A program made the translations under genes and the position numbers. DNA of 44,118 bases from SAR324 cluster bacterium (GTDB lineage Bacteria > SAR324 > NAC60-12), in NCBI GenBank assembly GCA_029245725.1, contig JAQWOT010000150.1:1-44118 (forward strand). Reading direction: 5' to 3'. The notes under the pieces are model-generated. The model did not search any database, was not told where the DNA came from, and was given only the letters and a program-made list of their open reading frames with translations. Numbering within the stretch: the stretch's first letter is position 1; each line of letters opens with the position of its first letter. Below, piece after piece: positions 16,190 through 33,066 of the stretch.

Positions 16190-17038
16190 TTATCCTTTCA
16201 CTGCCCCGAAGGTTAAACCAGATACGATATGACGCTGCACAAGACTAATAAAGACCAAAGCAGGGAGCATTGAAACAAAACCTACTGCAGCCATGGCACC
16301 CCAATTCGTACCAGTAGTGGTGACAAACTCAGCCAGCCCTGTAGGTATTGTGCGGGCATATACACTAGTCAAGGTTGCAGCCAATAAGTATTCATTCCAG
16401 GCAAAAATCCAGCTCAATAATGCTGTAATTGCAATTCCTGGTGCTGCTTGGGGAATAATGATTCTAAATATGATTGTAAAATAATTACCACCATCGATTA
16501 AAACAGCCTCATCTAATTCTCTTGGTATTCCGTCAAATATACCTTTCAGTAACCAGATAGCAAAAGGGAGATTGAAAACACAATAAAGTAGAATCAATCC
16601 TAATTTTGTATCAAATAAACTCACATCATCATAACGAAAAACAATAGAGAACAGCAGAAAAAGAGGTAGCAGGAAAGCGGCAGGAGGTGCCATCCTATTT
16701 GTCATCGTCCAGAAGAAAATATTCTCTGAGGCTGCCAACTTCCATCTCGATAGTGCATATGTCGCCATAATGGCTAGAATGGTAACCAGTATAGCATTAC
16801 AAGATGCAACTATGATTGAGTTCCACAAGTATTCTGCATAGACTCCATCAACAAAAGGCTTTGTGAAATTTTTCCAATAAATTTTTTCAAAAAAAGTTGG
16901 TGAAAAATCTGGTTTTCCAAATAGTTCAACAGGACTTCTAGTTGAAACAACGAACATCCAATAAATTGGAATTATCGTAATCATCGAAAGAATGCTCCAA
17001 ATGATAAATTTTACTAACTTTTTCAAATTTTTAATCAT
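16190..17038 (-). CDS. Carbohydrate ABC transporter permease, MalG type
   Basis: This 282-residue inner-membrane permease has about six hydrophobic segments. The coupling loop [15 protein letters not shown]...IIIPQAAPG (about 181-211) is the EAA motif of MalG-like permeases, and the C-terminus [17 protein letters not shown] is the family ending. It overlaps its partner permease gene by 8 bases and is followed after three bases by the small DUF2160-like gene. No ATPase gene is present in this minus-strand set. The gene order receptor, MalF type, MalG type, small DUF2160 protein mirrors glycerol-type uptake operons. Confidence 0.88.
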
Positions 17039-17906
17039 TATTCTGTTTTGAAGTCATAACTACGTAAAGTAACCAACAAATCACAATTGTTATATAAAGT
17101 AGAAATATCGACATTGCAGAACCATAGCCATAGAATCGACTTTCAAACACTGACCTCCAGATATGAATTCCAGCTAGTCGAGTTTCTACACCAGGACCTC
17201 CACTCGTTAACATCCAGATCTCATCAACTGCCTTCAGAGAATCCATTAACCTGATGAAGACTACAACGAGTAGCACGGGTACCATCATAGGAAGAGTGAG
17301 ATGAAAGAAAATTTGAATTCCATTAGCCCCATCCATTTTAGCTGATTCATATGGGTCTTTTGGCAAAGCACTCAATCCTGCTAATAGCGTCAAAGTAACA
17401 AACGGTGTCCAATGCCATATGTCCATAAACACAATCATCCAGAATGCCTGATCCGCGTCTCTCCCATAATTAAAAGAGTACCCGAACCATTCTTTCAAGA
17501 AATGAGGGAATGGGCCGAAGCCTGAAACTGTAAACAGCTTGAAGATCGATCCAACAACGATGGGAGCTACTACTAAGGGGAGGGTATGAACGATTCTAAA
17601 TAAAGGTCTGAACGGGAAACTTTCTCTCAAAGATAAGGCTAATAAAAATCCAATTATGAATTCAAAAAAAAGTGTGGTGAAGGCGTATTTAATTGATCGC
17701 CAGACACTCAACAAAAAATCTTCATCGAAAACTAATTTTCTAAAATTATCCCCTGCAATAAAAGTCATTTCATCTGACTTTCCTAAGGGATTCCAATTAT
17801 AGAAACTTACGATTAAAACATAAATAAATGGTAGTAACCCAACAATCAGTAGAATGACGATTGTGGGTGAAAGGAGATACCAAGGAATTCTTTTAGAACC
17901 AACCAC
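17031..17906 (-). CDS. Carbohydrate ABC transporter permease, MalF type
   Basis: This 291-residue permease has about six hydrophobic segments and the EAA loop [14 protein letters not shown]...LTLPMMVP (about 187-215). It also has the MLTSGGPG turn seen in MalF-type sugar permeases. The start is a GTG at 17906 without a clear ribosome binding site, so coupling with the upstream receptor gene or a short leader is possible. A strong stem-loop lies between it and the receptor gene. It pairs with the MalG-type protein encoded next. Confidence 0.86.
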
Positions 17907-17938
17907 GATTTAGTGAGTTTACATTGTTTGTTTTAAAT

Positions 17939-17961
17939 GGGGCTGATTGGTAATCAGCCCC
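17939..17961 (-). other. Strong intercistronic stem-loop after a binding-protein gene
   Basis: GGGGCTGATT and AATCAGCCCC form a perfect 10-bp stem with a 3-base loop, eight bases past the receptor stop codon and 33 bases before the permease start. The minus strand after it reads ATTTAAAAC, not a T-run. It is best explained as an mRNA-stabilising or partial attenuation structure that keeps receptor levels above those of the permeases. Confidence 0.65.
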
Positions 17962-17968
17962 AGAAAAG

Positions 17969-19393
17969 TTACTCCGCGTATTCCAATTCTTTCATAAGCT
18001 CGTCCACTGCTGCTGCTGCTTGATCCAGAGCCTCTTCTGGAGTCAACTCACCGGCAAGTGCTTTGAAAATGAATGGATCAATTGCGGCTCGACCTGCTCC
18101 ATGAAATGGATAGGGAGGAGCACCTGCGAAAAGATAACCAGTATCTCTCATCAAAGTGAAATAAGCATCTGCCTTTGCATCAACTGCTACAACTTTTGGA
18201 TCAGAATATGTTGCTTTATGGGTAATTCTACCTCCAGCAATTGCCCAATCAGCTTGCACTTCATTTTGCCCAAGATATTGCAGCCAAAGCATAGTTGCTT
18301 CTTTGTTCTTAGAAGAATGCGGAATTCCAAAAGCTCCACCATCGAAATAACCGATGTAGCCATTCCCGGAAGCAGCTTGCATCATTACACCCTCAGCAGT
18401 TGGTGGAAGGGCAACCCCAACATTACCTACGACACGAGATCTCTCTTCATCTGTCGCAATCCAGGCAGCATTTTCGCCATATACCCATCCTTGTGCAGCT
18501 CGTCCTGCAGCGAAAGATGCGCCCACTTCACTCCATGTACTTTGAAGCGCTTCTGGTGGAGCAAAATCAAGCAATCCAGTCCAGAATCTTAGAGCAGCTT
18601 TTGCTCGTCCACCGTTCAATTGGCCACCATTTTCAACAGACGCCTGGTAGTTGTCCATGTTGATTCCCCAATTGTAAACTCCAAAGCTTGGGAAGATGGT
18701 TTCCAACAGTTCATAGGTTGAGGCAGGGTGTCCAGTATGACCCTGAACAGTGGTTCCCCAGCAGTCCATACCTTGATCAGCGCAGAACTTTGTAAAAAAT
18801 TCAGCATTGTCTCGGTATTGACCAAAAGTTTTAGCTGGTTCTAAGCCATATCCATAGCGAGCTCGGAAGGCTGCCCTGGCTTCTGCATTCTCGAAAAGGT
18901 CTTTTCTGTAAAGATAAACCTTGATGAAGGCTTCCATCGGTACCCCAAAAACATCTCCCTTTCCGTTTTTGAAGTAATTGATAAATGTTGTGAAATCATC
19001 AAAGTCTACATTTGGCGCTTGCAGCTTCGGGTTTGCCGCTAAACCTTCAGAAATATTTACCAAGAAATCCCGATCCAAGTAGGAATAAATGATGTCTTGT
19101 TCAATATATACGAAATCATAGATACCTGTATTGGCCTCCATATCTTTGATGGCCTTATCATACATTTGATCCCATGATGTTGTTTCAAGCCTTACTTTGA
19201 TACCGGTCAATTTCTCGAAATCCTTGGCCAGGACCTCTGAAACAAATTGCCCAGGAGGAGTATTTTCAGTAACACCTTGAAGAGTTACACCTTTATAGGG
19301 TTGGCCAGCAGATTTCCAAAATGCATCATGGCCACCTGCAACTGCAGTAAGCGCTGTGACCGATGCAAATACTGATAGAAACAGCTTTTTCAT
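17969..19393 (-). CDS. Carbohydrate ABC transporter substrate-binding protein (family 1)
   Basis: This 474-residue periplasmic receptor has a Sec signal peptide ([21 protein letters not shown]). The mature protein shows the family 1 solute-binding layout: a first lobe with [21 protein letters not shown] (about 51-71), a YDFVYIEQD strand, and a long second lobe with the hinge segment [13 protein letters not shown]. The AGGAG site six bases from the ATG supports the start. It heads the minus-strand transporter operon and faces the large regulatory region. The DUF2160-like partner hints at glycerol or another small polyol, but the receptor is shorter than typical glycerol receptors (about 570 residues), so the ligand is open. 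Confidence 0.87.
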
Positions 19394-19919: not shown

Positions 19920-20879
19920 ATGAATGTAAAATTGCGCAGAAAGGATAGTCCTCCAGAATTCCAAGATGTAGTTACTTGGGCTGCTTGGCTTTATTACATT
20001 GATCAAATGACACAGATTGATGTTGCCAAGGTTCTAGGGGTTTCCAGGGCTTCGGTTGTAAATTATCTTCAAGAAGCTCGTGACCGAGGTCTCGTATCAA
20101 TCCAGTTCGATCAAAAGTCGATCTCAGAAACTGTCATTTCCAAATCGCTCCAAGCGAAATACGGTCTTGCTGGCTGTGTAGTTATTCCAAAGACCGTCGA
20201 GGAATCGAAATTATCCGAAAGACTGGGAGTAGCGGCTGCAAGGGTCTTATTCAGCATGTTGAATTCCAACGATGTAATCTCTGTAGCTTGGGGAAAGACT
20301 GTTCTCGCAGCGGCCCAAGCTATTCCCCGAAGCCAATTGGATAACCTCACAGTAGTTCAAGTCGTTGGTAGTTTTCATTCGACAGTCGAATTCTCCCCAG
20401 AATTTTGTACATCTGTGCTTGCCAACCGGCTTAACGCCCTCTGTATGAATTTTCTAGCTCCAGCAATTCTTTCCTCGAAACACCTTAAAGATGAATTATT
20501 GAAAGAAGAGGTTCTTGTTAACCAGTTCAAGACTATCAAATCTTCACGAATTATCATTTTCGGAATTGGAGAGCTAGATCCCCAAAGCACAGTCGTTAGA
20601 ACAGGCTTTCTGAAGGCAACTGAGCGTGAAAAATATCTTGCGCAGGGAGCAATTGGGACAATTCTCGGTAGAATGCTCAACGAGCAGGGCCAGCAGATTT
20701 ACACAGAAATAGATGATCGGATGATCGGAGTATCACTCGATGAAATCAAAAACATTCCTTGTCGATTAGCTGTGGCAGGAGGTTCCCAAAAAGTGGAGGT
20801 TGTGCGAGCAACTCTGAAAGGACAATATCCAACCCACTTGGTCACAGACTATGAAACTGCAAATGCACTACTTAGTTGA
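19920..20879 (+). CDS. SorC-family sugar-responsive transcriptional regulator
   Basis: This 319-residue regulator has an N-terminal helix-turn-helix (about 17-58, TQIDVAKVLGVSRASVVNYL) and a C-terminal sugar-phosphate-binding domain of the SorC/DeoR fold (about 60-319). The latter includes VISVAWGKT and the IGELDPQST...GAIGTI region. Length and layout match SorC/DeoR-type regulators, which form tetramers and respond to phosphorylated sugars. It has no strong ribosome binding site. It is the first gene of the plus-strand operon, just before an FGGY kinase, so its effector may be that kinase's product. Confidence 0.87.
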   Translation: MNVKLRRKDSPPEFQDVVTWAAWLYYIDQMTQIDVAKVLGVSRASVVNYLQEARDRGLVSIQFDQKSISETVISKSLQAKYGLAGCVVIPKTVEESKLSERLGVAAARVLFSMLNSNDVISVAWGKTVLAAAQAIPRSQLDNLTVVQVVGSFHSTVEFSPEFCTSVLANRLNALCMNFLAPAILSSKHLKDELLKEEVLVNQFKTIKSSRIIIFGIGELDPQSTVVRTGFLKATEREKYLAQGAIGTILGRMLNEQGQQIYTEIDDRMIGVSLDEIKNIPCRLAVAGGSQKVEVVRATLKGQYPTHLVTDYETANALLS

Positions 20880-20906
20880 TTCAAAGTCACGGGATGGGGA
20901 ATGAAC

Positions 20907-22385
20907 ATGACGGAGAGATTTGTCATTGGGATTGACAGTTCTACTCAATCGACAAAAGCGATCGTTTGGAATGAGACGGGCCAGCCAATCTCTGAGGGTA
21001 GGGCACCGATCAGTATGAAAATGCCTCAACCAGGTCACGCTGAGCAGGATCCTCATGAATGGTGGGATTCTTTTAAAATTGCTTTGCGGCAAGCACTTGA
21101 AAATATTGACCCAAAGAGAGTAGAAGGTCTCTCTATTTCTAATCAAAGAGAAACCGTAGCTTTTCTGGATCAGGATGGAACTAGTTTACATGACGCAATG
21201 GTTTGGCTGGATGAAAGGGCTGCTAACGAGGTTAGTGGTTTGTGTGAGGTTCTTGGAGGAGAACAAATTCACAAAATTTCAGGTAAACCAATTGACCCCA
21301 CCCCTGTGTTGTATCGGCTGAAGTGGTTGAGCAAAAACAAACCTGAAGTTCTTGCGAAGACACATCGAATCCTTGATGTGCAAGGTTACCTTGTATTTCG
21401 TTTGACAGGAACCGCCAAAACTAGTTGGACAAGCGCCGATCCTTTTGGAACTTTCGACATCCATAAAAAAGGCTGGTCCAGCACTTTGCTTGATCAGGTT
21501 GGTGTAAGCGCAGATCAGTTTCCCGAAGCACTCTGCCCTGGTGCAGAGATTGGGAAGATCTCAGAAAAAATCGCCTCAGAATTCAACTTACCAAAGAACC
21601 TAAAAGTATTTGCAGGTGGAGGAGATGGTCAATGTGCAGGGCTTGGTGTAAATGCCATTGCAGGGGGGCGTGCTTACCTGAATCTTGGGACAGCTATTAT
21701 CGTGGGAGCTTCATCTAAGGATCTGCGCTTAAGTAATTTCTGGCGAACTCACATTTCCCCTACCGGTGAGGGCTATTTCTTGGAATCTGTTCAGAGGGCT
21801 GGCGCTTTTTTTGTCAACTGGTTTTTAGAATGCCTTGGGACCGGGGAGCGCACTGGAGAAATTTTCTCTAGGCTTGAAGGACAAGCCTCTAAAATTGACA
21901 TTGGTTCTGAAGGAGTTCTCGTTCAGACTCACCTCTCTGGATGCATGGATCCTCATTGGGATCCCTCTTCAACCGGGGCATTTTTGGGTCTAAGAACTCA
22001 TCACACACAAGCACATCTGTATCGAGCTTCCCTCGAAGCGCTAACACTAGAATCAGCCCGTGCCATTCAGAAAATGGCTGGTGAGGGGGTTGAACTAAAA
22101 AAGATCAATGGGATTGGGGGTGGGGCCCAAAGTCCTCTGTGGATTAAGATGATCGCCGATGCAACCCAACTCCCTGTTCAAAGAAGCCTTTCCAATGAAG
22201 CTTCCGCCTTGGGGGCTGGAATTTCAGCTGCTGTGGGTGCAGGTTGGTTTGCAAATTTTGAAGAGGCTGCAGCTGCAATGACAAATGAGGCAGAGCAGAT
22301 CGAGCCTGATCAAAATGTTGCTGATAAATGGCAAGAGTTGTCAATGAGACAGTCCCAAATCTATATGATGACAAAAACATTTTAG
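20907..22385 (+). CDS. FGGY carbohydrate kinase (XylB-like), first of three
   Basis: This 492-residue FGGY-family kinase phosphorylates a sugar or polyol with ATP. The N-terminal phosphate-binding segment reads IGIDSSTQSTKAIVW (about 7-21), the substrate region includes SISNQRET and MVWLDERAA, the GGGDGQCAGLG segment contains the likely catalytic aspartate (about 235), and GIGGGAQSPLWIKMIAD is the C-terminal adenosine motif. The ATG at 20907 has GGGGA six bases upstream; the ATG at 20901 is too close to it. It resembles xylulokinases most, but FGGY substrates cannot be assigned by such likeness. Two further FGGY kinases follow in the same operon. Confidence 0.87.
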   Translation: MTERFVIGIDSSTQSTKAIVWNETGQPISEGRAPISMKMPQPGHAEQDPHEWWDSFKIALRQALENIDPKRVEGLSISNQRETVAFLDQDGTSLHDAMVWLDERAANEVSGLCEVLGGEQIHKISGKPIDPTPVLYRLKWLSKNKPEVLAKTHRILDVQGYLVFRLTGTAKTSWTSADPFGTFDIHKKGWSSTLLDQVGVSADQFPEALCPGAEIGKISEKIASEFNLPKNLKVFAGGGDGQCAGLGVNAIAGGRAYLNLGTAIIVGASSKDLRLSNFWRTHISPTGEGYFLESVQRAGAFFVNWFLECLGTGERTGEIFSRLEGQASKIDIGSEGVLVQTHLSGCMDPHWDPSSTGAFLGLRTHHTQAHLYRASLEALTLESARAIQKMAGEGVELKKINGIGGGAQSPLWIKMIADATQLPVQRSLSNEASALGAGISAAVGAGWFANFEEAAAAMTNEAEQIEPDQNVADKWQELSMRQSQIYMMTKTF

Positions 22386-22444
22386 ACTTAATATGCAGTA
22401 AGTCTAAATAATCTTTGTGTGGATTGAGATGTCTACACATTGCG

Positions 22445-22468
22445 CCAAAGAATCAGAGGATTCTTTGG
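22445..22468 (+). other. Perfect 10-bp hairpin ahead of the Tat-type receptor gene
   Basis: CCAAAGAATC and GATTCTTTGG pair perfectly around an AGAG loop, 59 bases after the kinase stop and 37 bases before the receptor start. No T-run follows. It may be a processing or attenuation site that separates receptor mRNA from the kinase message, or an operator for an internal promoter. Confidence 0.55.
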
Positions 22469-22505
22469 ATTCCTATGTCCCAAAACCACTTCGTGGAGAT
22501 TAATT

Positions 22506-23945
22506 ATGAGTGACAAAGCAAAGACCCTGTTCGAAGCCTACGCCACTGGCAAAATGAGTCGGCGTGAATTGTTGACCAAGATCGCACAATTGGGTGTAGC
22601 CTTTGGCGCAGCAAACCTCATGTTGAACAAAGCTTCCACAGACCTGCTTGCTGCAGATTTCAATTGGAAAGCTCACCAAGGGAAAAGCTTGAAGCTCCTT
22701 TTGAACAAGCACCCTTACGTAGATGCGATGATTGCAAACCTGGAAAATTTCAAAAGTTTGACAGGGATGAACATCACATATGATGTGTTTCCAGAAGACG
22801 TTTATTTCGACAAGGTAACAGCCGCTCTATCTTCCAGATCAAGTGAGTATGACGCCTTCATGACAGGTGCTTACATGACATGGACATACGGTCCAGCTGG
22901 TTGGATTGAGGATCTAAATGCTTGGATCAAGGATTCATCTAAGACGGCGCCAAACTATAACTGGGAAGACATGCTTCCAGGCTTGAGAGCATCAACTGCT
23001 TGGAATGGAGTCCCTGGAGGTGAGTTAGGTTCAGCAGATGCCAAACAATGGTGTTTGCCTTGGGGATACGAATTGAACAACGTTGCCTACAACCGCAACA
23101 TGTTCAAAAAAGCCGGGGTTGAGCCGCCCAAGAACATGGAAGACATGGTGAACGTGGCAGCGAAACTTCAAAGAGACCTAGGTGGGCCCTACGGAATTGG
23201 GGTTCGTGGTTCACGTTCTTGGGCAACCATTCACCCAGGTTTCCTCTCCGCTTACGCAAACTTCGGCCAGAAAGACTTCACTTTCAGTGGTGGCAAGCTG
23301 AAAGCGGCGATGAATACCAAGGCTTCCAAAGATTTCCATGAACTTTGGGTCAAGATGATTCAGGATTCTGGAGCGAAAAACTGGTCAACGCATACATGGT
23401 ATCAAGTTGGAACAGATCTTGGTGCTGGTGCTTCGGCCATGATCTTTGACGCTGATATTCTCGGATATTTCATGAATGGAGGTGACAACAAGGAAGCTGG
23501 CAATATTGGTTACGCTCCCTTTGCTGCTAATCCAAATGCTTCTGCTCCAACTCCAAACGTATGGATTTGGTCTTTGGCAATGTCTAGTTTCTCAAAACAG
23601 AAAGATGCCGCCTGGTACTTCATTCAGTGGGCCTCTTCTGCAGATCATGGAATGTTTGGTGCGAGAAAGATGGACTTCGTGAACCCTGTGCGTCAGTCCG
23701 TTTGGGATGATTCTGACTTCAGAAGCCGCATCAACGAGTCTTACCCTGGTTATCTCAACCAACATGACTTGTCAGCTCCTGGGGCAAAAATCTACTTCAC
23801 AGCTCAACCACTGTTCTTTGACCTTACAACACAATGGGCAGAGACTCTCCAAAAGATGGTCGCCAAATCTGTTCCAGTCGATGAAGGTCTGGATCAACTA
23901 GCTTCCGGCATTGATCGTCAGCTGAGAGATGCAGGTCTAGGTTAA
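22506..23945 (+). CDS. Tat-exported carbohydrate-binding protein of ABC transporter
   Basis: This 479-residue family 1 solute-binding protein starts MSDKAKTLFEAYATGKMSRR. The twin-arginine segment SRRELLTK (R19, R20) followed by AQLGVAFGAANLML marks a Tat signal, so the receptor is probably exported folded. The mature part has sugar-receptor features such as GMNITYDVFPEDVYFDKVTAAL and VWIWSLAMSSFSKQKDAAWYFIQW. GGAG seven bases before the ATG at 22506 fixes the start; the open frame reaches back to 22440 without a ribosome binding site. Hairpins flank the gene on both sides. It heads a complete transporter with two permeases and two ATPases. Confidence 0.87.
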   Translation: MSDKAKTLFEAYATGKMSRRELLTKIAQLGVAFGAANLMLNKASTDLLAADFNWKAHQGKSLKLLLNKHPYVDAMIANLENFKSLTGMNITYDVFPEDVYFDKVTAALSSRSSEYDAFMTGAYMTWTYGPAGWIEDLNAWIKDSSKTAPNYNWEDMLPGLRASTAWNGVPGGELGSADAKQWCLPWGYELNNVAYNRNMFKKAGVEPPKNMEDMVNVAAKLQRDLGGPYGIGVRGSRSWATIHPGFLSAYANFGQKDFTFSGGKLKAAMNTKASKDFHELWVKMIQDSGAKNWSTHTWYQVGTDLGAGASAMIFDADILGYFMNGGDNKEAGNIGYAPFAANPNASAPTPNVWIWSLAMSSFSKQKDAAWYFIQWASSADHGMFGARKMDFVNPVRQSVWDDSDFRSRINESYPGYLNQHDLSAPGAKIYFTAQPLFFDLTTQWAETLQKMVAKSVPVDEGLDQLASGIDRQLRDAGLG

Positions 23946-24046: not shown

Positions 24047-24970
24047 ATGTCCTCGACAAGTTCAGCGCTTGTTGCTCCAAAAAGTGGGCGCTTACGGAAA
24101 AAAATTTTACCTTATCTGCTCAGTTTACCGGCACTATTGGTCTGCATAGGGATTTTGATCCCATTTTTTACTGCAGTCTATTATTCAATGATGCGATTCC
24201 GGCTGAACCTACCTTACCTGAAGGGGTTCATCTGGTTTGACAACTACATCAATTTTCTTTCAGACCCAGCGTTCTGGAACACTGTCCAGATTTCTCTCTT
24301 ATATGCCTTCCTAACTGTTGGCTTAGAATTACTCCTCGGACTTGGTATAGCGGTTCTGCTTCAACAGCCTAGTAAATTTAATAACATTGTCTCCGTTCTT
24401 CTACTTCTTCCATTGATGACTGCACCAGCTTTAGCGTCATTAATGTGGAAACTGATGACCAATCCAAATTTTGGGATACTAAGCTATCTCGTTAGTTTAC
24501 TTGGATTTAGTGATTTTAAATGGGCCTCAGATCCCTCTACAGCGTTACTGACCGTTGTGTTGGTGGATATTTGGGTTTACACCCCATTCATCATGATTCT
24601 TTTGCTTGCTGGCTTACGTTCCCTGCCAAAACAGCCATTTGAGGCTGCAGCATTGGATGGAGTCCCACAAAGCTTCATCTTCTTCCGCATTACCTTGCCA
24701 ATGCTGATGCCATATCTATTGACAGCGACACTGTTTCGATTACTCGAATCCATTCAACAGTTTGATATTATCTATTCGATGACTCAGGGTGGACCTGGGG
24801 ATCAACTGATGGTTTTTCAAGTACAAGCATACCTAGAATTCTTCCAGTACACTAATGTTGGTCGTTCGACAGCTCTATTGATGGTCTTGTGGGCTATCAC
24901 GTTTGCACTTTCAAATGTTTTCATTAAACATTGGCTCCGCCTGCGAGAGCGAACCCATGGAAATGGATAG
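24047..24970 (+). CDS. Carbohydrate ABC transporter permease, MalF type
   Basis: This 307-residue inner-membrane permease has about six hydrophobic segments; the first is near 24-45 (LLSLPALLVCIGILIPFF). The EAA loop LPKQPFEAAALDGV...ITLPMLMP is at about 192-220, and MTQGGPGDQ is the usual MalF-type turn. AAGGG lies four bases before the ATG. It works with the MalG-type permease encoded 9 bases downstream and with the ATPase pair that follows. Confidence 0.88.
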   Translation: MSSTSSALVAPKSGRLRKKILPYLLSLPALLVCIGILIPFFTAVYYSMMRFRLNLPYLKGFIWFDNYINFLSDPAFWNTVQISLLYAFLTVGLELLLGLGIAVLLQQPSKFNNIVSVLLLLPLMTAPALASLMWKLMTNPNFGILSYLVSLLGFSDFKWASDPSTALLTVVLVDIWVYTPFIMILLLAGLRSLPKQPFEAAALDGVPQSFIFFRITLPMLMPYLLTATLFRLLESIQQFDIIYSMTQGGPGDQLMVFQVQAYLEFFQYTNVGRSTALLMVLWAITFALSNVFIKHWLRLRERTHGNG

Positions 24971-24979
24971 GAGTCGAAA

Positions 24980-25837
24980 ATGAACCAACTTTCTAAATCT
25001 CAGAGAGTCTTCCGAGGCATCCTCCTAGGTCTTGTGATCCTCTTTTTCATGTTCCCAATATTCTGGATCTTCTTGATGTCATTTCAGACTAATGAACAGA
25101 TCCTGAGAATTCCTCCGTCAATTTTCTTTGAACCAACGCTTATCAATTACCAAGCGCTGATCACCGGGAGACTTGAAACACAGGCAGGTAATCTTGACAT
25201 CGCTTTCATGGAAAATCTTTGGAACAGTGTATTTTTATCGTCATCAGCGGTTTTACTTTCACTTGTCCTCGGAGTTCCAGCAGCATATGCATTTGCACGC
25301 TACCGCTTTAGACTAGGTGAAGACATCGCATTCACGATTCTCTCTTTTCGTTTTGCCCCTCCGTTGTTGGTTTTGCTACCACTAACGCTGTATTTCGAGG
25401 ATATTGGTTTATCCAATACCTATACAGGACTGATCTGGGTCTATCAGTTGATCTCGTTACCACTTATTCTTTGGATTGTACGTGGATATTTTGAGGATAT
25501 TAGCCCAGATATTGAGAGCGCATACAGGTTAGCAGGTCATTCTTGGTTACAGACATTTTTGAAAATTTCGATTCCCTTGGCTCGTCCTGGAATTGCTGCT
25601 GCGGGATTATTGTCCTTCATTTTTGCGTGGAACAATTTTGTATTCGCTCTCGTTTTAGCTTCTGCTGATAAACAGCCCGTAACGGTGGGAGCATTGGCCT
25701 TCGTGACGGCTTCGGGAATTCAGTACGGACAGATCGCTGCAGGGATTGTGTTATCGGTAACTCCCACTTTGTTGTTGGCCTTGTACGCTCAAAGATACTT
25801 GGTAGAGGGCCTATCTCTGGGGGCGGTAAAAGGTTAA
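24980..25837 (+). CDS. Carbohydrate ABC transporter permease, MalG type
   Basis: This 285-residue permease has about six hydrophobic segments, an EAA loop ISPDIESAYRLAGH...ISIPLARPG (about 174-203) and the family C-terminus LVEGLSLGAVKG. That ending is nearly the same as that of the minus-strand MalG-type permease ([11 protein letters not shown]). AGGAG precedes the start. The first ATPase gene begins 2 bases after its stop. Confidence 0.88.
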   Translation: MNQLSKSQRVFRGILLGLVILFFMFPIFWIFLMSFQTNEQILRIPPSIFFEPTLINYQALITGRLETQAGNLDIAFMENLWNSVFLSSSAVLLSLVLGVPAAYAFARYRFRLGEDIAFTILSFRFAPPLLVLLPLTLYFEDIGLSNTYTGLIWVYQLISLPLILWIVRGYFEDISPDIESAYRLAGHSWLQTFLKISIPLARPGIAAAGLLSFIFAWNNFVFALVLASADKQPVTVGALAFVTASGIQYGQIAAGIVLSVTPTLLLALYAQRYLVEGLSLGAVKG

Positions 25838-25839
25838 TC

Positions 25840-26928
25840 ATGGCAACATTGCAATTAGATCGAGTTACTAAGAAATTCAAAACGGATGTAGTTCTTGATC
25901 AAGTTTCTTTTGAAGCTGAATCAGGAGAGACTCTTGTAATTTTTGGTCCCTCTGGAAGCGGCAAAACTGTCTTATTGAGAGTCATTGCTGGAGTTTACGA
26001 GCCTGAGGAAGGCAAAGTCGTACTACAAGGTCATGATATGACGGATGTTGCTCCTGAGCATCGTGAAGTTGGGATGGCGTTCCAAAATTTTGCACTCTTT
26101 CCCCACTTTTCTGCCCGAGAGAATATCGCTAGCCCCCTAACAGCCCTTGGAAAAAGCGACACCCAAATTGAAGAGCAAGTACAATCAATTGCAAAACTTC
26201 TCAAAATTGAACACGTTCTTGAACACTTACCAAGAGCACTTTCAAACGGGCAAAAGCAAAGGACTGCTCTAGCAAGGGCATTGGTTGCAGCACCCAAGAC
26301 TGTACTCTTGGATGATCCGCTCAGAAACGTGGATGCTAAGCTACGGTTTGAGATGCGTTTGGAGCTGCCTCGTCTGCTTCGAAGATTTGGTTCAACCGTT
26401 CTTTACGTGACTCAGGATTATCGGGAGGCGATGGCACTTGCTGACAGAATTGCCGTGCTTGTTGGAGGAAAAATCGCTCAATTTGATACACCCGAATCAA
26501 TTTATCTTCGACCATCTTCAATTGAGGTTGCAAAGCTCTTTGGAGAACCAGCCATCAACATTTTACGTGGTCAAGTCAATGAACAGGCCAATAGAGTATC
26601 TGTCAACCAAAACCAGTTCATCCTTCCAAAAGGGTTTCATGACAAGGCTGGAAAAATCTGTGATATCAGTATCCGACCTGAATCCATAAAATTATTTCGA
26701 GAAAAGCGTGTTGGAACAACTTCTTACGAGGTGATCACCATCACCCCACTCAATGAACGATCAGTTGTCCTTTTAAGAAGTCAGGAAGGCTTGGAACTAT
26801 TAGCCACCTACCCAGCAGAAGAACAGACAGCGAAGATAGGTGATGCCTTCTGGGGAATGGTAGTCCCTGAGGATCTGTTGCTCTTCGAAACAGAAACTGG
26901 TCAAAGATGTTTACCCGAGCAAAATTAA
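25840..26928 (+). CDS. ABC ATP-binding protein with degenerate catalytic residues
   Basis: This 362-residue sugar-type ATPase has an N-terminal nucleotide-binding domain and a C-terminal regulatory (TOBE-like) domain from about 240. Walker A is GPSGSGKT (36-43) and the Q-loop is normal (Q82), but Walker B reads VLLDD, so the catalytic glutamate is D159. The switch histidine is Q192 (YVTQDYREA) and the signature is LSNGQ (134-138) instead of LSGGQ. This subunit probably binds ATP but hydrolyses it poorly. It would pair with the next ATPase as a heterodimer, as in transporters with two different NBD genes such as the glycerol GlpS/GlpT system. Confidence 0.87.
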   Translation: MATLQLDRVTKKFKTDVVLDQVSFEAESGETLVIFGPSGSGKTVLLRVIAGVYEPEEGKVVLQGHDMTDVAPEHREVGMAFQNFALFPHFSARENIASPLTALGKSDTQIEEQVQSIAKLLKIEHVLEHLPRALSNGQKQRTALARALVAAPKTVLLDDPLRNVDAKLRFEMRLELPRLLRRFGSTVLYVTQDYREAMALADRIAVLVGGKIAQFDTPESIYLRPSSIEVAKLFGEPAINILRGQVNEQANRVSVNQNQFILPKGFHDKAGKICDISIRPESIKLFREKRVGTTSYEVITITPLNERSVVLLRSQEGLELLATYPAEEQTAKIGDAFWGMVVPEDLLLFETETGQRCLPEQN

Positions 26929-26958
26929 AAATTTTATTCCATTTAGTTGGAGATTTTC

Positions 26959-28089
26959 GTGCCTGAAGTCCAGTTGAGTCTGAACTCCGTTGACAAGACT
27001 TATTACAGTAAGAAGATTGAGGCAGCAGTTCGAGCTGTGAAAAATCTTTCACTACAGATTAGCAAAGGTGAAATCGTTGCCCTCCTAGGTTCATCTGGAT
27101 GTGGGAAGACATCAACATTGCGAATGATTGCAGGATTCGAGGATGTTACAGGGGGAACAATTGAACTCTCTAATCGTGAAATCCACCAGTTGCCACCTGC
27201 TAAACGAAACGTAGCAATGGCGTTTGAGGGTTACTCTTTATACCCTCCACTGACTGTGAGAGACAACATAGCTTTCGCCCTTAAAGCCGAGCGTATCTCG
27301 CGGTTAGAATCAGATGCTAAGGTCATGGAGATGGCGAAATTTCTAGAGATCGAAGAAATTTTGGAAAGATACCCCTCCTCGATTTCTGCAGGCCAGCAAC
27401 AGCGCGCTAGTCTGGCCAGAGCTTTGGTTCGTAAAGCAGATTTGTATCTACTGGATGAACCTATGGGGCAACTCGAACCACAGCTTCGTTCAGTTTTGCG
27501 GGTTCGTCTGAAGCAGTACCTACAAGCACATCAGATGACTACCGTACTCGTTACTCATGATCAAACCGAGGCTAATGCCCTTGCTGACCGCATTGCTGTA
27601 ATGGAAGATGGCGAACTGCAACAGTTTGAAACACCAACAAAGCTCAAGCATAGGCCCGCGAACATTTATGTTGGAACTTTCATCGGGGAACCACCGATGA
27701 ACACATTTGCCGCTGAGGTGAATCCGGTCGGTAAGGGTTTTCAGTTTCAATTGGAAGAGACAGGGGAACTCCTTGATTATCAAGCTGTTGATTTTCAGCA
27801 GAATTTGCGTGACCAATTGATTCAACATAAAAGAGTCATGCTCGGTCTTAGACCACATGCTGTCAAATTGGGAAAGGGAGCTTTGAAGGCACAGGTAATT
27901 TCCAATCAATGGCTTGGAGACCAATCACACATTGCAGCAGAATTTGCAAATAGGATCATAGTTGCCGTTTCTCACCAAAGAGAAGAATTCCAATTGGATG
28001 AGAATGTTCCTTTTCACCTGGAGGCTTCAGATCTTCACTTCTTTAATGCAGAAAACGGAAACACTATAGCCCACAGTCTGGAGATGTAA
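26959..28089 (+). CDS. ABC ATP-binding protein, second NBD, altered Q-loop
   Basis: This is the partner ATPase, 376 residues from a GTG at 26959 that has GGAG six bases upstream (a TTG at 26947 overlaps that site). Walker A is GSSGCGKT (44-51), Walker B LLDE with E167 and the switch histidine H200 are intact. The Q-loop glutamine is replaced by E90 (AFEGYSLYPPLT), the signature is ISAGQ (142-146) and the D-loop reads GQLEP. The C-terminal part from about 235 is a TOBE-type domain. With the preceding protein it would form one degenerate and one more competent ATP site. It is followed after 2 bases by an FGGY kinase gene. Confidence 0.87.
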   Translation: MPEVQLSLNSVDKTYYSKKIEAAVRAVKNLSLQISKGEIVALLGSSGCGKTSTLRMIAGFEDVTGGTIELSNREIHQLPPAKRNVAMAFEGYSLYPPLTVRDNIAFALKAERISRLESDAKVMEMAKFLEIEEILERYPSSISAGQQQRASLARALVRKADLYLLDEPMGQLEPQLRSVLRVRLKQYLQAHQMTTVLVTHDQTEANALADRIAVMEDGELQQFETPTKLKHRPANIYVGTFIGEPPMNTFAAEVNPVGKGFQFQLEETGELLDYQAVDFQQNLRDQLIQHKRVMLGLRPHAVKLGKGALKAQVISNQWLGDQSHIAAEFANRIIVAVSHQREEFQLDENVPFHLEASDLHFFNAENGNTIAHSLEM

Positions 28090-28091
28090 TT

Positions 28092-29624
28092 ATGGATCTT
28101 CTTCTGGGAATTGACGCAGGTACTTCTGTGATTAAGGTTGTTGCCTTTGATCTAAAGGGTAATCAAATTGCGGTAGCAGCCAAAGCAAATCACTATGAAA
28201 TGCTCTCAAACGGAGGGGTTGAGCAGGAACTTGATCGAACTTGGAAAGACACCCTTGAAGTCATTCGCCAGATCCTAGAAAAACTAGATGGGCATCAAAT
28301 CGTTGGTATTGCAGTAACAGGTCAGGGTTCTGGAACTTGGTTAATTGATGAGAATGGAAGCCCTGTTGGACGAGGTTGGTTATGGCTAGATGCAAGGGCT
28401 GCAGACCTGGTCGAGAGCTACAGTGAGTCCTCCAACGCTAGAAGACGTTTTGAGTTGACAGGTACTGGGCTAGCTGCCTGTGATCAGGGGCCTCAATTAC
28501 TGTGGATAAAAAAACACCAACCAGAGATTCTTCAAGAGAGCACGACAGTATTCCATTGCAAGGATTGGCTTTATTTTAATCTGACTGGTGTCAGAGCTAC
28601 CGATCCCTCAGAGAGCGTCTTCAGTTGTGGCAATTTTCGAAATCGAGATTTTTCCGATGAAGTCATCGAACTGCTGGGACTGACTGAACAGAAAGCTTTG
28701 TTTCCCAACGTAGTTGACGGAACCAAAAACTCCCACCCACTTTCAGAAAATGTAGCTAAACTTTGCGGTCTGCAATCCGGTATCCCAGTTGTGTTGGGAT
28801 ATGTAGATGTAATCTGTACAGCTCTTGGCTCTGGCCTCTACGACCCAGGCTATCAAACAGGATGTACGATCATCGGTTCAACTGGTATGCACATGCGCTA
28901 TGTTGATTCCGTAGATGAGATCAAACTCAATCAGGATTCAACCGGCTACACGATGGTTTTTCCTGTTGACGGGACTTACAGTCAAATGCAGTCGAACATG
29001 GCTGCGACGCTCAACATTGATTGGATGTTGGACCTCGCAATTGATGTTTTGAAATTTCAGGGCATTCAAAAAAATCGCTCGGATCTTCTCAAAGATTTGG
29101 ATCAACACATCCTTGATGCCTCTCCGGCAGAATTTCTTTACCATCCCTACATATCACAAGCTGGTGAAAGAGGACCTTTTATCAATGCGAACGCAAGAGC
29201 CAGCTTCATTGGACTTTCATCGAAGCACGGCTATTTTGATATGTTGCGAGGGGTCTATGAAGGACTTTCTTTCGCAGCAAGGGACTGTTACGAGGCAGCA
29301 GGGGGAGTACCCGCCGAAGTTAGACTCTCAGGCGGGGCCGCTCGCAGCAAAGCCCTAAGAAAGATCATGGGATCAGTCTTGAAGACTCGTTTTCGTACAG
29401 CTGAAAGAGGAGAAGCAGGTGCTTCAGGTGTAGCAATGATGGCTGCAGTATGTTTAGGAATTTACCCTGACATGGCCGCATGCGTAAGAGATTGGGTTCA
29501 TCCATATCTGAGCGAAGCTGAAGAATATGATGCCTCACAAGGGCAAATTTATGATTCACTTTATCCTATTTACGTTGAAGCACGCCAAGCTTATCTTCCG
29601 CTTTGGAAATCATTAAAAAATTAA
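28092..29624 (+). CDS. FGGY carbohydrate kinase, second of three
   Basis: This 510-residue FGGY kinase has LLLGIDAGTSVIKVVAFD (about 3-20) as the N-terminal phosphate loop, VTGQGSGTWLID, WLWLDARAADLV, a GYVDVICTALGSG segment with the likely catalytic aspartate, and RLSGGAARSKALRKIMGSVL as the C-terminal motif. It is closer to the carbohydrate/polyol kinase branch than to glycerol kinase. The gene starts 2 bases after the ATPase gene, so transport and phosphorylation are probably coupled in expression. The substrate is not readable from sequence. Confidence 0.87.
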   Translation: MDLLLGIDAGTSVIKVVAFDLKGNQIAVAAKANHYEMLSNGGVEQELDRTWKDTLEVIRQILEKLDGHQIVGIAVTGQGSGTWLIDENGSPVGRGWLWLDARAADLVESYSESSNARRRFELTGTGLAACDQGPQLLWIKKHQPEILQESTTVFHCKDWLYFNLTGVRATDPSESVFSCGNFRNRDFSDEVIELLGLTEQKALFPNVVDGTKNSHPLSENVAKLCGLQSGIPVVLGYVDVICTALGSGLYDPGYQTGCTIIGSTGMHMRYVDSVDEIKLNQDSTGYTMVFPVDGTYSQMQSNMAATLNIDWMLDLAIDVLKFQGIQKNRSDLLKDLDQHILDASPAEFLYHPYISQAGERGPFINANARASFIGLSSKHGYFDMLRGVYEGLSFAARDCYEAAGGVPAEVRLSGGAARSKALRKIMGSVLKTRFRTAERGEAGASGVAMMAAVCLGIYPDMAACVRDWVHPYLSEAEEYDASQGQIYDSLYPIYVEARQAYLPLWKSLKN

Positions 29625-29634
29625 GGAGAATTCC

Positions 29635-30678
29635 TTGGAACCAAAAAAAATTGCCATCATCGGTGATCGGTTCATGAAGACAGAAATCTTTAGGGAACAC
29701 CTCGAAAAAACTTGTGGAAACAATCATCTTTTTAAGGAACTTGAGTTGCCTTGGCCCGATGAGCCGATGGAGCACGGTTACGAAAAACCAGGAATGGCAG
29801 GCCTTAAAGAATATATGGGTAATCCCGATGAAATCGTCAGCTTCATTGGTGATTCGGAAATTGTTGTGGACCATCTTGCTCCTTTCTCAGCAGAGATGTT
29901 TGACAGATTGAAGACCCTTCGTCTCATTGCTGTCTCACGTGGGGGTCCAGTAAATATTGATATGGAAGCCGCTCACAAGTCCAACGTCAAAGTGGTCAAT
30001 GTTCCAGGCAGGAATGCGAGCGCTGTTGCAGAGTTCACGATTGGTGCAATCTTAGCCGAAACAAGGCTGATCCGCTTGGGCCATGAATCTCTTAGAAAAG
30101 GAACCTGGCGCGGTGATCTTTATCGGGCTGACGTCACTGGCAGAGAACTCTCACAGATGACCGTTGGATTGATTGGCTATGGTCATATCGGAACAAAGGT
30201 TGTGAAACTTCTTCAGCCCTTTGGATGCCAAATCCTGGTCTGTGATCCATATGTCGAGTTGAGTTCGGACGACAAAGAGAATGGTGTGCAACAGGTCGAT
30301 TTAGATACTTTACTTAAGAAATCGGATGTCATCAGTTTGCACTCGAGAGTGACAAAGGAAACAACTGGTTTCATCAATCGAGAAGTATTCCAGAAGATGA
30401 AGAAAGATGCTTACTTCATCAACACAGCTCGTGGACCGATGGTGGATTACCAGGCTTTAACTGATGCACTCACCAGCGGTCATCTCCGGGGAGCTATGCT
30501 AGAAACTTTTGGAGTAGAGCCAGTTCCTCTAGATTGGCCATTGCTAAAACTTGATAACGTAACACTGACACCTCATATCGCTGGCGCTTCCCTACGGACA
30601 GTAGAGTATGCCGCTGAACAGGCTGCACAAGAAGTTCAACGGTTTCTTTCCGGTGAATCCCCTCTAAATCCTTGTTAA
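29635..30678 (+). CDS. D-2-hydroxyacid dehydrogenase (SerA-like)
   Basis: This 347-residue NAD-dependent dehydrogenase starts at a TTG at 29635, which has an ideal AAGGAG six bases upstream. The dinucleotide motif is canonical (GYGHIG, 181-186). The catalytic residues are R266 (NTARGPMVD), E295 (FGVEPVP) and H314 (TPHIAGAS). It resembles phosphoglycerate and hydroxypyruvate dehydrogenases. In this operon it may act on an acid intermediate of sugar breakdown, such as glycerate or a tetronate. Unlike the family protein at 6465-7397, its nucleotide loop is intact, so the two are not recent copies. Confidence 0.87.
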   Translation: MEPKKIAIIGDRFMKTEIFREHLEKTCGNNHLFKELELPWPDEPMEHGYEKPGMAGLKEYMGNPDEIVSFIGDSEIVVDHLAPFSAEMFDRLKTLRLIAVSRGGPVNIDMEAAHKSNVKVVNVPGRNASAVAEFTIGAILAETRLIRLGHESLRKGTWRGDLYRADVTGRELSQMTVGLIGYGHIGTKVVKLLQPFGCQILVCDPYVELSSDDKENGVQQVDLDTLLKKSDVISLHSRVTKETTGFINREVFQKMKKDAYFINTARGPMVDYQALTDALTSGHLRGAMLETFGVEPVPLDWPLLKLDNVTLTPHIAGASLRTVEYAAEQAAQEVQRFLSGESPLNPC

Positions 30679-30705: not shown

Positions 30706-31755
30706 ATGAATGATTCAACATTTAATTTTTCAAAAAGTTTAGAATTTCAGCAATTTTGTGAACTCTCCGCTGAGATCGGAAGAAATCCATTATTGGTACA
30801 GGGAGCAGGAGGAAATACATCTATTAAAGAAGACGGACTACTTTGGGTGAAAGCATCCGGGACCTGGTTATCAGAAGCGACAGAAAAAAAGACCATGGTT
30901 GCTGTAGATCTTGTCAAGTTACAGCAAGCAATGGCGCAGAATGACGAGCGGGTGGAAAAGCCTCAATATTTTAAAGCAGACCCCACAGAATCCCTTCGTC
31001 CATCAATTGAGACGGTAGTTCACGCCTCATTAAATCACCGGGTTGTGCTCCATGTTCACTGTGTGGAAACAATCTCTTGGGCTGTCCTTGAAAATGCTGA
31101 AAAGCTCTTAGTTACTCCCTTGGAAGGCCTCGACTGGGTTTTCATTCCTTACAGAAGGCCCGGATTACCACTGGCTCGTGAGATACAATCAAAGATCACG
31201 GAGAAGACGAATGTTTTGATTCTTGGAAATCATGGGCTGGTCGTAGCTGCCGATTCAATTAAAGAGGCGCATGCCCTTTTGTTGGAAGTACACCAAAGGC
31301 TTAGGCGCGCTAGAAGAGAAGTTACCATTCCAAAGTCTAATTTTGCTCTTCCAGCAGAATCCAACTATCGAGATGCTGAATTCTTTGCCCAAGGAATAGC
31401 CCACGACAATATTTCTCTGGAAAAGGTAGAAAAGGGTTCGCTTTACCCTGATCACGTCATTTTTCTGGGCTCAGGTGTACAACTTCTGAATTCGAGTTCA
31501 ACTCTAGACCAGTTTGAGCAGAATCAACATGAAAGCCTTCCCAAAGCCTTGATCGTCCCTGATCAAACCGTGTTGGTAAACAAGCAAGCCCCTCGTGGCA
31601 CCGATGAAATGTTATTGTCTCTGACAGAAGTTGCAGCTCGGTTACAACCCAACGATAGAGTTCAAAAATTGACTTTCAATGATGAAGCAGCACTTCTGAA
31701 TTGGGATGCTGAGAAGTATCGACAGGAACTGGCTCGACGAAATGCCTCGGCTTGA
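30706..31755 (+). CDS. Class II aldolase family protein, RhaD-like without dehydrogenase domain
   Basis: This 349-residue protein matches the aldolase half of the RhaD-type fusion but lacks a dehydrogenase domain. Phosphate-binding VQGAGGNTSIK is at 31-41, LWVKASGTWL at 46-55, the probable acid is E102 (RPSIETVVH), and metal histidines are H116, H118 (LHVHCV) and H176 (GNHGL). It is expected to cleave a ketose phosphate to DHAP and an aldehyde, or act as an epimerase. The C-terminal third (about 230-349) has no recognised domain. With FucA-like and fused forms on the other strand, it is the third class II aldolase of the locus. Confidence 0.82.
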   Translation: MNDSTFNFSKSLEFQQFCELSAEIGRNPLLVQGAGGNTSIKEDGLLWVKASGTWLSEATEKKTMVAVDLVKLQQAMAQNDERVEKPQYFKADPTESLRPSIETVVHASLNHRVVLHVHCVETISWAVLENAEKLLVTPLEGLDWVFIPYRRPGLPLAREIQSKITEKTNVLILGNHGLVVAADSIKEAHALLLEVHQRLRRARREVTIPKSNFALPAESNYRDAEFFAQGIAHDNISLEKVEKGSLYPDHVIFLGSGVQLLNSSSTLDQFEQNQHESLPKALIVPDQTVLVNKQAPRGTDEMLLSLTEVAARLQPNDRVQKLTFNDEAALLNWDAEKYRQELARRNASA

Positions 31756-31779: not shown

Positions 31780-33066
31780 ATGACATTCTCACAAGAATCT
31801 GTCCTGGTCCTCGGAATTGACATCGGCACTTCAGGAGTGCGAGCAGTTTTGATGAATTCAACATTTGATGTGGTGGCTCAACGTTCCAGCCTTATGTCAG
31901 ATTTCGGTTCTAATCACCGAAACCCTACTGTTTGGTGGAAGTCCTTGGAATCTGCTCTAGAGCACTTGCGGATAGAAGCACATGAACAATGGAGTCAGGT
32001 TGCTGGAATATCTGTCGATGGGACATCTGGGACGATGTTGGCGCTCAACAATAAGCTGGAACCCATTGGCGATGCTCTGATGTATAACGACCCCGTCAAA
32101 GATCCTGATGTTCTTGAGCAGATTCGTCAGTATGCTCCAAGGGAAAGTGCTGCACATGGTGCCACTTCTGGATTGGCAAAGTTGATGAAGCTTCAAGAAC
32201 TTAATGGATGTCACCGAGTGCTTCACCAAGCGGACTGGGTACTTGGAAAATTTATTGGCGAATACCGATGGAGTGATGAGAACAACTCTTTAAAAACAGG
32301 GTATGATCCCATCCATAGAGAATGGCCAAATTGGATCTCCCACACAAAAGCGCAGCGTGAGTTACTTCCAGATCCACAAGAACCTGGTCAAGTCACGGGT
32401 GAGATTGACCAAAAGATTGCGGAACGCTTTGGGCTTTCGAAAGACCTCAAAATCATTTCAGGGACTACGGATGGTTGTGCTGCTTTCTTAGCAACAGGTG
32501 CATCCGAAATTGGGGATGGAGTCACTTCACTTGGTTCGACTTTAGTTGTGAAAATTCTAAGTGATCAACCAGTGTTTGCACCTGAATATGGCATCTACAG
32601 TCATCGAATTGGGGATCAGTGGTTACCCGGTGGAGCCTCAAATACGGGTGGCAACGTGCTCACTCATTTTTTTTCAGATGAGGAACTACTTAAACTTTCC
32701 AAAAATATTGACCCTGAGACAACAGTTGATCTTGATTACTATCCCTTGCTTAAACCCGGAGAGAGATTTCCAATCAATGATCCCACCTTCCCACCCCGCT
32801 TAGAGCCAAGGCATCCCAATGACCAAACTTTCCTCCATGGTCTGTTATTAGGAATGAGCGCAGTGGAAGCGTTGGCCTACAATTGTTTAAATGAACTAGG
32901 AGGCCCAGTCTTGAAGTCACTTCGTACAGTTGGAGGTGGTTCAAAGAATTCCGTTTGGACGGCTCTTCGCCAAAAACAAATCCCCATTCCAATGCGGAAT
33001 GTTGCCTCTGATCAAGCTGCTGCAGGAGCCGCTCGACTTGCCTTGAAGGGCTTACTTAGTATCTAA
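31780..33066 (+). CDS. FGGY carbohydrate kinase, third of three (D-ribulokinase-like)
   Basis: This 428-residue FGGY kinase is shorter than the other two. Its features (LGIDIGTSGVRAVLM at about 11-25, SVDGTSGTMLAL, DALMYND, SGTTDGCAAFLATGA and VGGGSKNSVW) resemble the cyanobacterial and plant D-ribulose/xylulose kinase group (SePSK and XK-1, about 425 residues). A D-ribulose-like ketose is therefore a reasonable candidate substrate, though unproven. The gene ends 3 bases before the HAD-IIA gene. Three FGGY kinases in one operon imply either several substrates or successive phosphorylation steps. Confidence 0.85.
   Translation: MTFSQESVLVLGIDIGTSGVRAVLMNSTFDVVAQRSSLMSDFGSNHRNPTVWWKSLESALEHLRIEAHEQWSQVAGISVDGTSGTMLALNNKLEPIGDALMYNDPVKDPDVLEQIRQYAPRESAAHGATSGLAKLMKLQELNGCHRVLHQADWVLGKFIGEYRWSDENNSLKTGYDPIHREWPNWISHTKAQRELLPDPQEPGQVTGEIDQKIAERFGLSKDLKIISGTTDGCAAFLATGASEIGDGVTSLGSTLVVKILSDQPVFAPEYGIYSHRIGDQWLPGGASNTGGNVLTHFFSDEELLKLSKNIDPETTVDLDYYPLLKPGERFPINDPTFPPRLEPRHPNDQTFLHGLLLGMSAVEALAYNCLNELGGPVLKSLRTVGGGSKNSVWTALRQKQIPIPMRNVASDQAAAGAARLALKGLLSI

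Follow-up and report, generated by a model that had tools for sequence, protein, structure and literature searches.

The window analysed here (the whole stretch of DNA, 44,118 nucleotides from a SAR324 cluster bacterium) contains an importer operon with two adjoining ATPase genes, which we call A and B (Table 1). The operon consists of a SorC-type regulator, an FGGY kinase, a solute-binding protein (SBP), two MalF/MalG-like permeases, A, B, another FGGY kinase, a 2-hydroxyacid dehydrogenase, and a class II aldolase, in this order. Annotated orthologous loci show this order too, from the regulator to the class II aldolase, except that the first FGGY kinase, which lies in the window in the interval between the regulator and the SBP, is absent there. 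The SBP and the two permeases accompany the ATPases as in a MalK/UgpC-type (CUT1) importer, but the two adjoining NBD genes with unlike catalytic residues make this operon a variant, not an ordinary member of that type.

Table 1. Features of the A/B importer operon in the window (positions are those of the window).
Feature	Position	Strand	Remarks
SorC/DeoR-type sugar-binding transcriptional regulator	19920..20879	+	annotated alphaproteobacterial loci have a counterpart 5′ of the transporter genes
Extracellular solute-binding protein of the importer	22440..23945	+	SBP_bac_1
Transmembrane subunit 1	24047..24970	+	UgpA/MalF-like, BPD_transp_1
Transmembrane subunit 2	24980..25837	+	MalG/UgpE-like, BPD_transp_1
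ATPase A	25840..26928	+	MalK/UgpC-type NBD with C-terminal regulatory-like domain
A D159 codon GAT (Walker B Glu position)	26314..26316	+	
A Q192 codon CAG (switch His position)	26413..26415	+	
ATPase B	26959..28089	+	MalK/UgpC-type NBD with TOBE domain; GTG start, GGAG upstream
B E90 codon GAG (Q-loop Gln position)	27226..27228	+	
B E173 codon GAA (D-loop Asp position)	27475..27477	+	
FGGY carbohydrate kinase	28092..29624	+	directly 3′ of B; conserved order
2-hydroxyacid dehydrogenase	29635..30678	+	conserved order
Class II aldolase/adducin family protein	30706..31755	+	same-class gene at the equivalent place in other loci

Three FGGY-type carbohydrate kinases are clustered in the window (20901-22385, 28092-29624, and 31780-33066), accompanied by class II aldolases and HAD phosphatases; the third encodes 428 amino acids and has weak FGGY_N/C scores. 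Downstream in the orthologous operons of S. meliloti Ak57 (L031) and Gemmobacter fulvus (L033) are two further genes, one glycerol-3-phosphate-dehydrogenase-like and the other for a second class II aldolase; the window has no such dehydrogenase gene at the equivalent place. A second CUT1-type importer lies at 16190-19393 (reverse strand), divergently oriented, with an SBP (17969-19393) and two permeases (17031-17906 and 16190-17038). Within the window no ATPase gene was found in its operon, and this importer may rely on an NBD encoded at another place, perhaps A/B.

The products of A and B are about 31% identical to each other. UgpC and MalK are among their top NCBIfam matches, the UgpC scores (299 and 313 bits for A and B, respectively) lying below the cut-off of 432, and the Pfam domain TOBE_2 was matched in B only, not in A. 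The AF2 models, for which the alignment input comprised sequences from the window and the genome contigs, are confident MalK folds (pLDDT 92.8 for A and 89.7 for B), and the closest PDB structures found by Foldseek are MalK-type for both. In the ORF translation, A has the Walker A motif GPSGSGKT (residues 36-43, including K42), a canonical Q-loop (Q82), the signature LSNGQ (134-138, including N136), and a canonical D-loop (NVD, D165); in its Walker B motif, however, Asp158 is followed by D159 in place of Glu (LLD-D159-PLRNVDAKLR), and Gln replaces the switch His (VTQ192D). B has the Walker A motif GSSGCGKT, keeps the catalytic Glu of Walker B (D166-E167, in LLDE167PMGQLE173PQLR) and the switch His (VTH200D), and reads ISAGQ (142-146) at the signature in the window; its Q-loop Gln is replaced by Glu (AFE90GYSLYP) and its D-loop Asp by Glu (E173), followed by Pro (GQLEP). 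Residues of B are numbered from the GTG at 26959; the mechanical ORF begins at the TTG at 26947, from which E90, E167, and H200 are residues 94, 171, and 204. The translations thus bear out the preliminary description, which had reported two asymmetric NBDs in a Type I sugar importer (which is MalK/UgpC-type by our comparisons), with D159 and Q192 in A, and E167 and H200 kept and E90 in the Q-loop in B; the D-loop change E173 goes beyond the changes listed there.

We searched for orthologues in plasmids and in genome contigs. Using tblastn of A and B against plasmids, we found orthologues that form a separate group (the A orthologues 52-54% and the B orthologues 56-59% identical, in Sinorhizobium, Shinella, and Gemmobacter), all other matches having at most 40% identity; S. 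meliloti 1021 pSymB was not one of the closely matching records. The genome-contig scan used peptide patterns that exclude positions 159 and 192 (GMAFQNF and AKLLKI[DE]H) and yielded 359 relatives; the best 80 of the 359, all with at least 50% identity, were read. Orthologous pairs in the same gene order occur across many alphaproteobacterial families and in a few Gammaproteobacteria, at about 50-59% identity. LSNGQ, LLDDPLRNVDAK, and VTQD are constant in the A-type ORFs read, as are AFE, QLEPQ, DE, and THD in the B-type ORFs (one locus is masked in Walker B), and the B signature among the orthologues is [I/V/L]S[G/A]GQ, with ISGGQ in most. According to the codon counts, D159 is invariant in 93 of 93 A ORFs (GAT in 67 and GAC in 26), as are Q192 (CAG in 87, CAA in 6) and N136 (AAC in 78, AAT in 15). 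The 90 B ORFs are likewise invariant at E90 (GAG in 61, GAA in 28, and one unaligned there), at E173 (GAG in 69, GAA in 21), and at H200, and E167 is present in every readable one. Since the codon changes at the unusual residues are synonymous only, these residues are under purifying selection. The genes for A and B are adjacent in all 90 loci that have both on the contig, with a median gap of 12 bases; two A loci are cut by contig ends, with B present as a partial ORF or on another piece.

Because the 80 loci were chosen as best matches and are biased in this respect, we also searched evenly drawn whole-genome samples from two classes. A member of the clade was found in 5 of the 385 alphaproteobacterial and 2 of the 369 gammaproteobacterial genomes (the centre genome being included in both counts), and the clade members are clearly separated by score from the next NBDs (431 vs. 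318 bits and 566 vs. 325 bits in the two class samples). All the clade members read in these samples have the same states, and the next-scoring NBDs are canonical. As a background we pooled 95 other MalK/UgpC-type NBDs: position 159 (A numbering) is Glu in all 95, position 192 is His in 94 (and Thr in GlpS, see below), the D-loop position 165 is Asp in all 95, and the Q-loop position 82 is Gln in 86 and Glu in nine.

In a tree of 69 NBDs, A groups with an NBD that we call X1 (94/62, which is not strong) and B with another, X2 (98/98). In relatives of the window genome (L006, L023/L187, and L024/L186), the genes for X1 and X2 lie next to each other, and both proteins keep the catalytic Glu, the His, and the D-loop Asp; both also have Glu in the Q-loop, as in B. 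X1 is 65-71% identical among the three genomes, and no close plasmid match to X1/X2 was found. Since X1/X2 have Glu and His together with the D-loop Asp, D159, Q192, and E173 are derived, and it is likely, judging from the tree and the motifs, that A/B and X1/X2 descend from an ancestor with two NBDs. The X1/X2 pair differs from A/B in its gene neighbours: the X1/X2 importer, seen in three genomes that belong to the same family as the window genome, has DhaK/DhaL-like genes and permeases alongside (for example, L186 5390-7588, reverse strand). X2 reads DEVMSHLD, with Val for the Walker B Pro.

The window genome also encodes a complete single-NBD sugar importer, whose ATPase (L185 4511-5602) has Glu in the Q-loop (VFENYALYP) and is canonical in all other motifs; its orthologues (L121, L123, and L142) are like it in this. 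The Q-loop Glu is older than D159, Q192, and E173, and is not tied to the loss of catalysis. The preliminary description had counted E90 as a sign of degeneracy, a claim that we reject, since the Q-loop Glu occurs both in X1/X2 and in this otherwise canonical importer of the same genome. It had also pointed to the signatures LSNGQ and ISAGQ as deviating. Both are indeed present, but they are weak signs of degeneracy: the Ser and the fourth-position Gly are kept, the variation is confined to position 3 (plus position 1 in B), and B has [I/V/L]SGGQ in most orthologues.

NBD dimers are arranged head-to-tail (PMC7756269), and the D-loop reaches the opposite ATP site (PMC4242082). In a dimer of A and B, site I would be built from the Walker A, Walker B, and switch motifs of A with the signature and D-loop of B, and would carry D159, Q192, and E173; site II would be built from the Walker A, Walker B, and switch motifs of B with the signature and D-loop of A, and would have E167, H200, and the canonical D165, plus E90 and N136. 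E173 of B would thus fall in the same composite site as D159 and Q192 of A, placing three derived changes on site I. As in a degenerate NBS, the catalytic Walker B Glu is replaced in one NBD (D159 in A) and kept in the other (E167 in B), and the deviations are conserved among orthologues. In human exporters, the degenerate site as a rule has an altered signature of the opposing NBD (PMC7756269); we did not find this in A/B, where most B orthologues have ISGGQ at the signature (the window has ISAGQ) and the D-loop is changed instead (E173).

The explanation that we favour, and consider probable, is that A and B form a MalK-type heterodimer of a CUT1 importer in which site I is non-hydrolysing or slowly hydrolysing and site II is the working site. 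The preliminary description had suggested a fixed ATP-binding site plus one hydrolytic site, a reading that may be right. We infer the heterodimer from two observations, the adjacency of the genes and their complementary conservation, and, likewise from the sequences, the assignment of the sites and the consequences of D159, Q192, and E173 for ATPase activity. The importer would take up a putative sugar or polyol. Site I would bind ATP, since the Walker A Lys, the Walker B Asp158, and the signature Ser and Gly are kept, with slow hydrolysis or none; site II would perform the hydrolysis that resets the transporter, so that about one ATP would be used per turn, at site II, and the ATP in site I could act as a clamp that lasts longer, a role that has been proposed for degenerate sites in exporters. 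Against this explanation, site II departs from the canonical pattern at E90 and N136, and a Walker B Asp can still sustain slow hydrolysis (PMC7756269, PMC12038006). We put forward a stricter version only tentatively, and it may well be wrong: one ATP would be hydrolysed per cycle, the ATP in site I would be held for several turnovers with the NBDs never fully apart, E173 would be part of the switch, and the whole would be a convergent re-invention of the degenerate-site cycle of exporters. MalK-type importers are modelled with NBDs that open after hydrolysis, which counts against a clamped site.

Both sites might instead hydrolyse ATP, with D159, Q192, and E173 as conserved tuning that leaves site I slower but needed in every cycle. 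Asp can serve as a weaker base, residual hydrolysis at Asp sites has been reported (PMC12038006, PMC7756269), and the Walker A Lys and Thr, Asp158, and the Ser and Gly of the B signature are retained; but site I also has replacements for the switch His and for the D-loop Asp, and in exporters such a combination is too slow to sustain transport (PMC7756269, PMC12038006), so that we think this unlikely. We give still less weight to a transporter powered by a B homodimer (or by B with some other NBD), in which A and B would not pair and A would be a regulatory or accessory ATPase. Here the strict conservation of the Walker A, signature, and D-loop motifs of A and the invariable side-by-side position of the two genes are hard to accommodate, and a B homodimer would carry E173 in both sites, whereas it is A that has the canonical D-loop; on the other hand, the catalytic Glu and His occur in B alone, the operon of the second importer (16190-19393) lacks an NBD gene within the window, and multitask NBDs are known among type I importers (PMC7658222).

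The reverse assignment, in which site II (with E90 and LSNGQ) would be impaired and site I would work with Asp159, is very improbable: E90 and N136 are likewise invariant, but the Q-loop Glu coexists with canonical catalytic residues in X1/X2 and in the single-NBD importer that the window genome encodes, LSNGQ retains the Ser and the second Gly, and the catalytic Glu and His are in site II. Sporadic substitution, decay, or sequencing error would have been suggested by ordinary residues in the orthologues, as the preliminary description had pointed out; instead, each orthologous pair that we examined has D159/Q192 along with E90. The window assembly is fragmented (407 contigs), but we found no support for this explanation and regard it as ruled out by the orthologues, given that dozens of genomes, sequenced independently, agree at these positions, and given the exclusively synonymous changes and the intact ORFs. 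Identical changes in about 90 related sequences look like built-in design.

The A/B operon shares with MalFGK2 and UgpABCE the SBP, two BPD_transp_1 permeases, and the MalK-type NBD and fold, but MalK and UgpC each form a homodimer in which both sites are canonical, whereas the A/B operon has two unlike NBDs, one of which carries the Asp/Gln pair. GlpS/GlpT likewise combine two unlike MalK-type NBDs in a single type I importer; we assign them, from the glpD/glpK neighbourhood, to the glycerol importer operon glpSTPQV of Rhizobium johnstonii 3841 pRL9 (L117 5779-7935). GlpS has Thr for the switch His (ATTEP) and keeps the Walker B Glu, where A has D159 and Q192; GlpT has the signature LTADQ and a modified D-loop region (VIDP), where B has E173. 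Given the missing switch His of GlpS and the modified signature and D-loop of GlpT, site I again looks impaired in GlpS/GlpT. The combination of D159/Q192 and E90 is nevertheless not common to GlpS/GlpT, with which the preliminary description had proposed a comparison. We also rejected GlpS/GlpT as orthologues of A/B, since they fall in other clades of the 69-NBD tree, on very long separate branches, with 26-29% identity to A and B and different changes; their asymmetry would have arisen independently or very early. None of the papers that we found discusses the asymmetric site of this glycerol importer.

Similar to A/B, the degenerate-site heterodimeric exporters (TAP1/2, TM287/288, BmrCD, TmrAB, and MsRv1273c/72c) have a Walker B Glu-to-Asp change and a switch His change in one NBD, and consensus residues in the second. 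For example, MsRv1273c has Asp497 and Gln528, the same pair as D159 and Q192, and mutants showed that hydrolysis at its Asp site is very low (PMC12038006). The Glu-to-Asp change with an H-loop change is a recurrent pattern, conserved in sequence, and a lasting ATP clamp has been proposed for degenerate sites (PMC7756269). These exporters, however, have fused TMD-NBD chains and the exporter fold, whereas A/B belong to a binding-protein-dependent importer with MalK-type NBDs. By its MalK fold, the A/B importer belongs to a different branch of the superfamily, so that the likeness is convergent, and the lopsided design of A/B looks as if it had evolved separately from the similar one of drug exporters. 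One degenerate ATP site is also known in the fused ATPases of CUT2 sugar and nucleoside importers, RbsA and NupO (PMC11466899), but there the NBDs are fused in one chain, the second Walker A/B motifs are lost, the permeases are of another type (BPD_transp_2), and the ATPases are not of the MalK family; with its separate NBD genes and BPD_transp_1 permeases, the A/B importer does not belong to CUT2. In the open-access literature that we searched, no paper describes one-site degeneracy in MalK-type importers.

The role of the silent site, and whether one hydrolysing site is sufficient, have so far been debated chiefly from exporters. A/B represent a binding-protein-dependent importer family near MalFGK2, with separate NBD subunits, in which the Asp/Gln degeneracy has become fixed throughout a bacterial class. 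Since the SBP, permeases, and NBDs are all separate and intact sister pairs exist (X1/X2), the role of the silent site could be tested by subunit exchange and reversal mutants.

The A gene of the pair is present in only 4 of the 52 genomes of the window's class, all from one genus. In the 69-NBD tree, the window A is nested among alphaproteobacterial A sequences, in a subset with support of 97/96, and the window B is nested in a subset of the B sequences with support of 100/93. Horizontal transfer from Alphaproteobacteria into the window lineage seems the simplest reading of this distribution and of the tree.
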